Shown here: piece by piece, positions 55,969-60,026 of the stretch
Position numbering within the stretch: the first letter of the stretch is position 1
Layout: each line of letters begins with the position of its first letter
Source of the DNA: Actinomycetota bacterium
GTDB taxonomy: Bacteria > Actinomycetota > Acidimicrobiia > Acidimicrobiales > Ilumatobacteraceae
DNA length: 64,000 bases
Assembly: GCA_016870865.1 (NCBI GenBank)
Contig: VGAC01000004.1
Span: forward strand, 1-64,000
Direction of reading: 5' to 3'
The notes under the pieces: generated by a model
What the model was told of the DNA's origin: nothing
Database searches by the model: none
What the model saw: the letters and a program-made list of their open reading frames with translations, nothing else
Program-made: the position numbers and the translations under genes

Positions 55969-56726
55969 CACGACCCGACGGGAGACAGCCCGACGATTTA
56001 CGGCCGCTTTCCTTCGAACGCGACTACACCGAAATGGCCGCGGGTTCGGTGCTCGTGTCGTTCGGTCGCACGCGTGTGCTGTGCACCGCATCGATCGACC
56101 AAGACGTGCCGCGCTGGATGAAGGGCAGTGGCAAGGGTTGGGTCACCGCCGAATACAGCATGTTGCCCGGTTCATCACCCGAGCGTGTCGACCGCGAAGC
56201 CGCAAAGGGCAAACAGAGTGGCCGCACGGTCGAGATCCAGCGACTGATCGGTCGTTCGCTGCGGGCGGCGTGCGACATGACGCTGTTGGGTGAGCGCCAG
56301 GTGGTCGTCGACTGTGACGTGTTGCAGGCCGACGGGGGCACGCGTACGGCGAGCATCTGTGGCGGATTCCTGGCACTGCACGACGCGCTGACGCGTCTGT
56401 TGCAGAACGGCGCAATCAAGAAGCACCCGTTGCATTCGCAGTGTGCGGCGATCAGCGTGGGTATCCACAACGGGACGCCGGTCCTCGACCTGCCGTACCT
56501 CGAGGACAGTACGGCAGAGGTGGACATGAACGTTGTCATGGTGCAGCCGGTTGCCGGTGGTGAGGCACGTTTCGTCGAGGTGCAGGGAACAGCCGAGGGT
56601 CGTGCCTTCGCGCGTTCAGAGCTCGACGCGTTGCTCGAACTCGCGTCCCACGGCCTCGGTCGCATCTTCGATGCCCAGCGTGGCGTGCTGGCGACTCCGC
56701 CCACGCGACGTTCGCTCGGTGGCTGA
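55965..56726 (+). CDS. rph: Ribonuclease PH
   Basis: 253 residues. A phosphorolytic 3'-5' exonuclease that trims tRNA 3' ends. Start [27 protein letters not shown] near residue 30, [20 protein letters not shown] near 108 and the [18 protein letters not shown] block are family signatures. ATG 55965 overlaps the murI stop, and its stop overlaps the GTG of rdgB. It may help mature tRNAs that lack encoded CCA, such as the one at 58343-58415. Confidence 0.95.
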
Positions 56727-57396
56727 TCGCGCACCCGTGGCCGCGCAACAGCAACTCGTGTGTGCAACGGCGAACCCGGGAAAGGTCGCCGAGATCGCGG
56801 GTTTGTTGCCCGACGGTTGGGCCTTGTTGCCGCGGCCGCAGTCGGTCGGCAACATCGTCGAAGACGCGGGGACTCTGCTTGGCAATGCTCGATTGAAGGC
56901 GCGGGCGATTCTTGCAGCGACGGGCGGGGCGGCCGTCGCCGACGACACGGGGTTGGAGGTTGCGGCGCTGGACGGAACTCCCGGCGTCGAGACTGCCGTC
57001 TATGCGGGGGTGGGCTGCAGCGATGCCGACAACAGGAAGAAGTTGCTCGGTGCGCTGGCCGGTGTATCCGACCGCAGCGCCCGCTTCGTCACCGTGGTCC
57101 TGGTGGCGTGGCCCGATGGCTCGGAGACCATCGTCGAGGGACTGTGCGAGGGACGCATCGCGGAAACGGAACGCGGTGAAAGCGGGTTCGGTTTCGATCG
57201 CGTTTTCATTCCCGACGACGGTGACGGCCGCACGTTCGCGGAAATGACCACCGAGGAAAAGGACGCGGTGTCGCACCGCGGACGCGCATTCCGCGCACTC
57301 GCCGGGGAATTGGCGAATTCACCAACCGCGCAGGTCGATCGCCCATTCGTCGACGACAAGGCCGTCGCGGTGAACCCAGGCCCGTTCGTGTTGTGA
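56719..57396 (+). CDS. rdgB: Non-canonical purine NTP pyrophosphatase (RdgB/HAM1)
   Basis: 225 residues. It hydrolyses ITP, dITP and XTP to keep deaminated purines out of nucleic acids. [12 protein letters not shown] (about 14-25), [18 protein letters not shown] (about 72-89) and [12 protein letters not shown] (about 154-165) with [15 protein letters not shown] near 176 cover the active site. GTG 56719 overlaps the rph stop. Its 3' end overlaps the convergent aldolase-like gene by 78 bp, an unusually long convergent overlap. Confidence 0.93.
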
Positions 57397-58341
57397 CATC
57401 GTGGGATCGACGTGTGCCGGGGTGACGAGCACGTGTTCGCCGACCCCGGGCAGGAACGTCGGTGCACCGTGTGAGTCGGGGTCGCGCTTCACGGCGAAAG
57501 TGACGTGTTCATCGGAACAGAACCACACGTCGTAACCGTCGACTTCGGGGTTGCCGTGGTCCATACCGAGCGCCTTGAGGCCGACGTCGGCAACGGCCCA
57601 GCCGACCGCACGAGAGATCACGGTACCCACGACGTGCACCGCCTGGTGGAACGGTAGACCGAGGGTTGCGTACGACGTGTCCATCAGCGCGTAGCTGCCG
57701 GCCTGCAGTTCCGTGATGCCCGTGTCGAGGTGTTCGCGCCACGTGCCCGTTCCACCGGCGGAAATGATGTCGCCGCCCACTTTTTCACTGCAATCACGCA
57801 GTGTCTCCATCGCCAAGGTGACCCGCTCCCGTTTGGCGGCCGGGTCGTTGAGCATCATGAGGTGGCCCTCGTAACCCATCACACCGCGCACCTCGAGATG
57901 CAACGAACGGGCAAGATCTGCGAGGCGCGCGGCGTCGTCAGGCTCGACACCGCAGCGGGGAAGGCCGACGAAGACGTCGACGAGAACCTTGCTGATGCCC
58001 GCCCGAGCGGCGGCTCGGACAGTTTCATCGGAGTCGACGGCAACCGTCGCACCGGTGCTCGCGATCGCACCCAGTCGTGCCGGGTCGACCGATTCGTTGG
58101 CGAGAAGAAAATCGGCCTCGATGCCGGCCCTGGCGAGCCCTGAGATTTCACGTGGGGTGGCGCAGGTGAAGCCGGTGTGCCCGAAGCGCTGCTGCACCCG
58201 GGCGAGCGAACTGCATTTGTGGGCCTTGGCATGGGGTCGCAGACGACTGCCCGGCCAGGCCTGCGCCATGGTCGCGAGGTTGGCCTCGAGGGCGCCAGCA
58301 TCGATGATGAGGGCGGGGGTCGGCAGGTCGTCGATGAACAT
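57319..58341 (-). CDS. D-threonine aldolase/D-serine dehydratase-like PLP enzyme
   Basis: 340 residues, fold type III (alanine-racemase-like barrel plus C-terminal domain). The PLP lysine is in RPHAKAHKC (about residue 37). The C-terminal metal site reads PAHVDPTM near 312-319, with His and Asp as in D-threonine aldolases rather than the His/Cys of D-serine dehydratases, so retro-aldol cleavage of D-3-hydroxy amino acids is favoured. ATG 58341 lies 1 nt after a tRNA gene on the same strand, with no room for a ribosome site. Confidence 0.82.
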   Translation of the reverse strand: MFIDDLPTPALIIDAGALEANLATMAQAWPGSRLRPHAKAHKCSSLARVQQRFGHTGFTCATPREISGLARAGIEADFLLANESVDPARLGAIASTGATVAVDSDETVRAAARAGISKVLVDVFVGLPRCGVEPDDAARLADLARSLHLEVRGVMGYEGHLMMLNDPAAKRERVTLAMETLRDCSEKVGGDIISAGGTGTWREHLDTGITELQAGSYALMDTSYATLGLPFHQAVHVVGTVISRAVGWAVADVGLKALGMDHGNPEVDGYDVWFCSDEHVTFAVKRDPDSHGAPTFLPGVGEHVLVTPAHVDPTMSQHERAWVHRDGLVVDEWAIDLRGW

Positions 58342-58342
58342 G

Positions 58343-58415
58343 TGCCGGCGGAGAGACTCGAACTCTCACTGGCGGCGTCCTAAGCGCCGTGCCTCTGCCA
58401 TTGGGCTACGCCGGC
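58343..58415 (-). tRNA. tRNA-Leu(UAG)-like with short variable loop
   Basis: 73 nt fold into a full cloverleaf. Acceptor GCCGGCG/CGCCGGC; D-arm GCC/GGC with a 3-bp stem and loop resembling leucine tRNAs (GG, then CAG before the 3' strand); anticodon stem CGGCG/CGCCG with loop CTTAGGA (anticodon UAG, codon CUA); variable loop only CCAGT; T-arm GAGAG/CTCTC with TTCGAGT; A73. CCA is not encoded. Bacterial tRNA-Leu normally has a long variable arm, so the class is abnormal. TAGCCT lies 10 nt upstream. Decoding and charging are unproven. Confidence 0.8.
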
Positions 58416-58478: not shown

Positions 58479-60026
58479 ATGGCGATGTCAACCGCAAGCC
58501 CTGTCTCTGGTCTTTCCAAGGATGCGCTCACCACGCAGTTGGGACTCGCCGACACGGTTGTCGACCAGGCGTCCCTCGCCAACAGCGTCAAGCGCTTCGC
58601 CGAGCAAAAGATCGTGTTGCCGACCTTCGCGCAGTTGGCCGACCCGTCGACGATTCCCGCCGAAGTGACGGCGGGGCTCAAGTGTCTCGACAAGGATGCC
58701 CCCGATGCCCGCAACCTCTTCCGCGTGCACTGGTACAACAACATGGCGGGTGAGCGCGGGTCGGTTCCCGAGCACGTGGTTCTGCCGTCGTCGCTGACCG
58801 GTGTCGAAAGTCCGATCATCGTCGTATTCGGTGACCGCTTCCCGATGATCACCGCGCACAAGGTGCTTGCCGCGTATTCGTGCTTCGCGCCACGCGTCAT
58901 TTCCGGTCAGTTCGATCCGACGAAGCACCGAGCGGTGTGGCCGTCGACTGGCAACTATGCGCGCGGTGGTGTCGCGATCAGCCGCATCATGGGAAGCCGC
59001 GGCGTGGCCGTGCTGCCCGCAGGCATGTCGCAGGAGCGGTTCGACTGGCTCGACCGTTGGGTGGCCGATCCCTCAGACGTCATCCGTACACCCGGGACCG
59101 AAAGCAACGTAAAGGAGATCTACGACGCCTGCAACGAGATGGCCAAGGATCCGGGCAACTTCATCCTCAACCAGTTCTGTGAGTTCGGCAATCACGTTGG
59201 CCACTACTACGTCACGGGTTCGGCCCTGTCCCACGCCTTTGAAACCGTCGCCGAGGCGAGTGGCAATCCGCGCCTGCGCTGTGCCGCCTTCACGTCGGCC
59301 ACGGGCAGCGCCGGCACCATTGCCGCAGGCGACAGGTTGAAGGATCTCTACGGCACGAAGATCGTCGCCGTCGAGGCTCTCGAGTGCCCGACGATGCTCG
59401 AGAACGGTTTCGGTGAGCACAACATTCAGGGCATCGGCGACAAGCACATTCCGCTCATTCACAACGTGATGAACACCGACGTCGTGGTGGCGATCTCGGA
59501 TCGTGCGACCGACGAGCTGGACGTGCTCTTCAACACCCCTGCAGGCAAGGCGTATCTCGCTGACCGGCTCGGGTTGTCGGCCGTGTTGCTCGAGCACCTC
59601 GAACACTTCGGCTTCTCGGCCATCTGCAACGTGCTGGCCGCCATCAAGACGGCAAAATTGTTGGGCCTCGGTGCCGACGATGCGCTGATCACCATCGCCA
59701 CCGATGGCTCGGCGCTGTATCCCAGCGAACGTGTCAAGACGCTCGCACACCGCTTCGGCAACGACTTCACCCGTGCCGATGCCGCCGAGGTGTACGGGGA
59801 GCATCTCGCCAATGTGAACACCGATGCGATGATCGACTGCACCGAGCGCGATCGCAACCGCATCTTCAACCTCGGCTACTACACCTGGGTCGAACAGCAG
59901 GGCACGCCGCTCGACGTATTCGAGGCGCGCCGCTCGCAGGACTTCTGGCGGGGTATCCGCGCCTACATGCCCGTGTGGGACGAAATGATCGCCGACTTCA
60001 ACGCGCGCGTCGCAGCGCACGGGTAG
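58479..60026 (+). CDS. PLP-dependent fold-II enzyme (cysteine synthase/threonine synthase-like)
   Basis: 515 residues. The tryptophan-synthase-beta fold is seen in [18 protein letters not shown] (about residues 157-174, the phosphate/substrate loop) and [19 protein letters not shown] (about 270-288); the lysine in [12 protein letters not shown] near 128 is the probable PLP anchor. It is longer than CysK or ThrC and I do not recognise the subfamily. Start ATG 58479 or 58485. Another fold-II gene follows after 3 nt, suggesting a two-enzyme unit. Confidence 0.75.

Follow-up and report, generated by a model that had tools for sequence, protein, structure and literature searches.

Leucine tRNAs are described as carrying a long variable arm everywhere except in animal mitochondria (2023 review PMC9976931). 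The arm is not among the features that E. coli LeuRS needs, which are A73, the A15–U48 pair, G18G19, A20a and the contacts between the D and T loops; variants of tRNALeu that lack both this arm and the anticodon arm stay active (PMC9976931). In M. tuberculosis it is especially tRNALeu-2, -3 and -5 that have long loops (MenT3 paper, PMC11541572). A tRNALeu(TAG) with a short variable loop, belonging to a mycobacterial tRNA cluster, has been noted in passing (PMC6582537). Our search of the open-access literature turned up no paper that treats bacterial class I tRNALeu, the form with a short variable loop, as a family. Since the 2023 review allows loss of the long arm only in animal mitochondria, the bacterial form is an under-recognised variant.

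The tRNA considered here is encoded on the minus strand of the window, by which we mean the whole 64,000-nt stretch of Ilumatobacteraceae DNA that was analysed. The preliminary description had recognised a complete 73-nt tRNA with anticodon UAG, A73 and a variable loop of 5 nt, and ARAGORN, Rfam and direct reading of the sequence all bear this out. ARAGORN places a tRNA-Leu(tag) at 58342-58415 on the minus strand, and the Rfam model RF00005 matches 58343-58415 of the same strand across its whole length, scoring 57 bits where the gathering threshold is 29. Read directly, the acceptor stem is GCCGGCG/CGCCGGC, positions 8 and 9 are U8 and A9, and the D-loop is AAUGGCAG; the anticodon loop is CUUAGGA and the T-arm GAGAG-UUCGAGU-CUCUC. 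In free folding both the acceptor arm and the T arm form, with an energy of −34.6 kcal/mol (z −2.5). A class II tRNA has a variable region of at least 10 nt with a stem, and that of the class II leucine tRNAs of the relatives measures 11–19 nt; the present one has 5 nt. The only further RNA gene found within the 64-kb window is a tmRNA, and a promoter scan found no sigma-70 consensus upstream of the tRNA. The elements of the gene and its neighbours are collected in the table.

Features of the tRNA-Leu(UAG) locus, numbered from the first letter of the window.
Feature	Coordinates	Strand	Basis
Class I (short variable loop) tRNA-Leu, anticodon UAG, 73 nt, A73, CCA not encoded	58343..58415	(-)	ARAGORN, Rfam, orthologues, replacement pattern
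D-arm GCCCAAUGGCAGAGGC, 3 pairs and C13-A22 mismatch	58391..58406	(-)	sequence
Anticodon UAG, reads CUA	58380..58382	(-)	ARAGORN and sequence
Variable loop CCAGU, 5 nt, ends in U48, replaces the long class II arm	58368..58372	(-)	sequence and distribution
Ala_racemase_N / D-ser_dehydrat protein gene (PF01168 + PF14031)	57319..58341	(-)	Pfam, synteny, flanks
PALP-family (PLP-dependent) enzyme gene, divergent, upstream of the tRNA	58479..60026	(+)	Pfam, synteny
Ham1/RdgB-family gene, conserved, flanking the locus on its other side	56533..57396	(+)	Pfam match residues 75-257, synteny

All of the listed E. coli LeuRS determinants, A73, A15–U48, G18G19 and A20a, are present in this tRNA (PMC9976931), so that charging by an ordinary LeuRS is to be expected. 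Within the host genome the closest comparison is with the class II tRNA-Leu(CAA) (AAUGGCAGA), whose D-loop AAUGGCAG(A), including G18G19 and A20a, is identical, and which likewise has A73 and A15–U48. The class I UAG tRNA differs from it by A9 for G9, a C–G for a G–C pair at 12–23, A26 for G26 and the absence of the long arm. Each genome encodes one full-length bacterial-type LeuRS. In the host this single enzyme would charge the class I tRNA with leucine through the core elements, with no need of the arm, and the charged tRNA would then serve the ribosome for CUA and, by wobble, probably also for CUG. A leucine anticodon, A73, the core elements, a codon that means leucine, and orthology by position and replacement are all found together. 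Judging from this combination, the gene very probably specifies a working elongator tRNA for leucine, class I in shape, that decodes CUA.

The host assembly is a draft of 1.95 Mb in 42 contigs, 96% complete, from which 42 distinct tRNAs were recovered. Its leucine set comprises class II tRNAs with anticodons CAA, GAG and UAA and the class I UAG tRNA, which is the only UAG tRNA found in this 96% complete draft. A Leu-CAG gene was not found in the host draft genome, and two relatives of the same genus (G005 and G012) have one. For the host draft alone, a class II UAG gene may sit in an assembly gap. Four relatives (G014, G005, G012 and G036) have a tRNA-Leu(AAG) instead of GAG. Such a tRNA would need A-to-I editing at position 34, which is unusual in bacteria; if modified to inosine, it could also read CUA in those genomes. 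This route does not apply in the host, since the host has GAG.

When 100 relatives were scanned with a pattern matching either form of tRNALeu(UAG), 79 genomes gave a hit, and the two forms exclude each other: 34 have the class I and 45 the class II UAG tRNA, and none of the 79 has both. By plain DNA similarity the tRNA was matched in 46 of the 100 relatives, far more than chance would produce; full-length copies are 81–100% identical in most of the relatives that have the class I tRNA, and the anticodon and the length of the variable loop are unchanged in nearly all of the orthologues listed. A closely similar tRNA, identical to that of G041, also occurs in the GTDB record 'Ilumatobacteraceae bacterium HGH.25'. 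Three closed relatives (G023, G030 and G048) each have exactly eight class II tRNAs, namely Tyr, four Ser and Leu with UAA, CAG and GAG; UAG is found in them only as class I, and a class I CAA gene is also present. The tRNA at 58343-58415 is no pseudogene, and it is not peculiar to one genome. One of the closed relatives (G048) also has, directly upstream of its intact class I Leu-UAG gene, a tandem array (L052 964-1538) of 8.2 copies with period 70 and 97% matches, whose unit is the 5' half of a class I leucine tRNA plus 32 nt.

The class I form extends well beyond the family. GTDB genomes were scanned by the D-arm signature alone, with the anticodon left free, the same pattern was applied to viral contigs, and named phages were searched by similarity. 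Actinobacteria dominate the GTDB matches listed (Mycobacterium, Nocardia, Corynebacterium, Rhodococcus and others), which also include single records from Planctomycetota, Rokubacteria, Chloroflexi, Elusimicrobia, Cyanobacteria and Deltaproteobacteria. Many further class I leucine tRNAs lie in viral contigs and in phages of Mycobacterium, Streptomyces, Erwinia, Salmonella, Escherichia and others; the tRNA cluster of Erwinia phage phiEa21-4, for example, holds tRNA-Leu genes of 77–78 nt with anticodons CAA, AAG and UAA. The suggestion that the gene is a lineage-specific leucine tRNA is thus well supported as to leucine and fails as to lineage, given this spread over Actinobacteria, a few other phyla and phages.

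Pooled, the searches yielded at least 245 different sequences that parse as class I tRNAs; their variable loop measures 4–7 nt, nearly always 5. Among the matches listed, a leucine anticodon and A73 are found in 245 of 245, and the short-form D-arm goes with six different leucine anticodons and no others; U48 is present in 242 of 246 (sets before merging). The stems are mostly 96–100% paired (lowest column 91%), percentages somewhat flattered by the parser, which itself required most pairs; many pair types occur, with covariation in all stems. At least one class I leucine tRNA occurs in 25 of 149 genomes spread over the phylum. In two closed actinobacterial genomes (G110 and G160) four leucine isoacceptors are class II and UAA is present only as class I, so that UUA must be read there by a class I tRNA. 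In three viral contigs (L418, L419 and L425) a class I leucine D-arm is accompanied by insertions, several tens of bases long, in the region of the anticodon, which are possibly small introns or signs of decayed genes.

A mycobacteriophage gives a further view of the two forms. Phage Gaia integrates into the tRNA-Leu-CAA gene of M. smegmatis without rebuilding it and brings a tRNA-Leu-CAA of its own, and a 44-bp shared core is reported for the cluster J phage Omega (PMC10865867). The Gaia tRNA-Leu(CAA) (L561 9121-9203) is class II, 83 nt long, which rules Gaia out as a case of class I replacement; the direction is the opposite one. In the cluster J phage Courthouse an attP-type stretch (L560 61-104) copies the 3' half of the host tRNA-Leu-CAA and has a short loop. 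From this copy, the M. smegmatis gene that Gaia disrupts appears to be class I. If so, this published lysogeny system may amount to a natural test showing that the two forms substitute for each other.

The unexpected body shape for this anticodon raises the question of whether the tRNA might carry another amino acid, with CUA recoded or ambiguous in the lineage. Some yeast mitochondria do read CUN as threonine or alanine, and CUA is rare here, a scarcity that would ease reassignment: 27 were counted in about 18,900 codons of the crudely called ORFs of the window, or 1.4 per thousand. The positions of these codons point the other way. In SecA, CUA encodes L604, an invariant leucine within a 10-residue motif, and L754; in RF2 it encodes L287, which is leucine also in the best-matching RF2 structure. 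The LeuRS sequences of class I genomes have 24 columns with CUA, and at 19 of these the other sequences most often show leucine, a proportion equal to that at CUG and CUC columns. A placing of CUA at positions conserved for another residue, as recoding would give, was not seen in SecA or LeuRS. Judged by these positions, CUA still means leucine in the class I genomes. Since the leucine identity elements are also kept, and the short-form D-arm keeps company with leucine anticodons alone among the matches listed, recoding seems most improbable. The location of CUA at conserved leucines and the replacement of an ordinary tRNALeu(UAG) both contradict the proposal of a tRNA mischarged by design.

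A second rival reading has the tRNA working chiefly away from the ribosome, for instance as donor for an aminoacyl-tRNA-dependent ligase, and ties it to its D-amino-acid-type neighbour. The PF01168/PF14031 ORF does abut the tRNA: its ATG begins 1 nt, a single C, past A73 (58341-58343), and this spacing is kept throughout the genus, with A/GTG as start. Because the 1-nt gap between A73 and the start codon is genus-wide, 3' processing of the tRNA could, we suggest, yield an almost leaderless mRNA for the D-ser_dehydrat-like protein. The Ham1/RdgB ORF as listed probably has its true start further in.

Comparison across the family separates the neighbour from the shape of the tRNA. The order PALP-like gene, tRNA, D-ser_dehydrat-like gene, RdgB is found among class I genomes (G000, G014, G016 and G036, for example) and is identical in the class II genomes G037 and G051; in a third class II genome, G033, it is seen for the part of the locus that was fetched. 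Within one genus, a class II genome (G043) and two class I genomes (G021 and G058) have the next downstream gene in common. Some genomes, class I as well as class II, have different genes beside the tRNA. The class I and class II tRNA-Leu(UAG) genes are positional orthologues, and within the family the class I form has replaced the normal long-arm tRNALeu(UAG) at the same chromosomal locus. The D-amino-acid enzyme gene noted beside the tRNA is real, with both Pfam domains; it is not the cause of the short arm, since in G037, G051 and G033 it stands behind a long-arm tRNA at this very locus. Those same loci, and the different neighbours of other class I copies, tell against a non-ribosomal role. 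As the only UAG tRNA, the class I form is needed for decoding CUA; its use outside the ribosome is unsupported, the class I tRNA being the sole UAG isoacceptor in the family, and we consider such a use highly unlikely. That the gene is a decayed tRNA or a tRNA-like element of mobile DNA might be suspected from the abundance of class I leucine tRNAs in phages and from the array of partial copies beside the G048 gene, yet it is just as improbable in view of the intact stems, the full-length copies in most relatives that have the tRNA, the covariation over 245 sequences and the want of a second UAG tRNA in closed genomes.

The functional leucine tRNA favoured here has changed form more than once. 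A LeuRS tree of 28 genomes, from which G070 was left out for its very long branch, implies at least three changes between the class I and class II forms. A single origin of class I within the family, imposed on this tree as a one-clade constraint, was rejected (p-AU 0.005). Between G021 and G028, which stand for two separately switched clades, the tRNA differs by one D-loop base only, and class I and class II UAG tRNAs share 72–85% identity. Transfer and replacement would be likelier than three independent deletions of the arm, given these near-identical short-form genes in separate clades and the recurrence of the form in phages; gene conversion at the locus is a possible route of the switch. 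As to a descent of the class I UAG gene from the class I CAA gene, the identities show no preference: between these two they are about 76–83% in pairs, no clearer than those to class II (72–85%). It is conceivable, though rather unlikely, that class I tRNALeu is a single lineage moving with phages and tRNA arrays, which has repeatedly displaced the resident class II genes of individual isoacceptors; the advantage might be that a tRNALeu with a short arm evades those host or phage factors that attack tRNAs by gripping the long arm, in the way that the toxin MenT3 grips that of tRNASer. The LeuRS of G070 (L538) is extremely divergent within its order, with a branch length of about 9 in the first tree; a foreign LeuRS may have taken the place of the original, or the sequence may be a contaminant.

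In a free-living bacterial family, then, the long-arm tRNALeu has been replaced in many members for the UAG or CAA isoacceptor, and in two other actinobacteria the UAA isoacceptor has been exchanged likewise. Should charging be confirmed, these genomes constitute a natural experiment showing that the arm is dispensable for bacterial LeuRS, EF-Tu and the ribosome, and switching in place provides natural matched pairs for probing arm function. The finding bears on tRNA identity rules, on arm-sensing toxins and on the design of orthogonal tRNAs, as well as on annotation and sequencing pipelines that expect 13–22 nt for leucine.

With the bacterial class II tRNALeu(UAG) the class I tRNA has in common the anticodon, A73, A15–U48, G18G19, A20a, the type of D-loop, the locus and the decoding role; it differs in having no long arm, A9 rather than G9, C–G rather than G–C at 12–23 and usually A26 rather than G26. 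The tRNALeu(TAG) of the mycobacterial cluster is alike in anticodon and short loop (PMC6582537), but it is an extra copy beside a normal long-loop gene, whereas here the class I gene is the sole UAG gene, at the orthologous locus. Animal mitochondrial tRNALeu likewise does without the long arm, and its LeuRS depends on A73 and A14 for charging (PMC9976931); it is, however, organellar and structurally degenerate, while the tRNA described here is a well-paired canonical cloverleaf of free-living bacteria. A precedent in function is the minimal E. coli tRNALeu without a variable arm, which is leucylated if A73 and the D/T-loop contacts are kept (Larkin et al. 2002, cited in PMC9976931). Those constructs were laboratory truncations; the present tRNA is a natural one.
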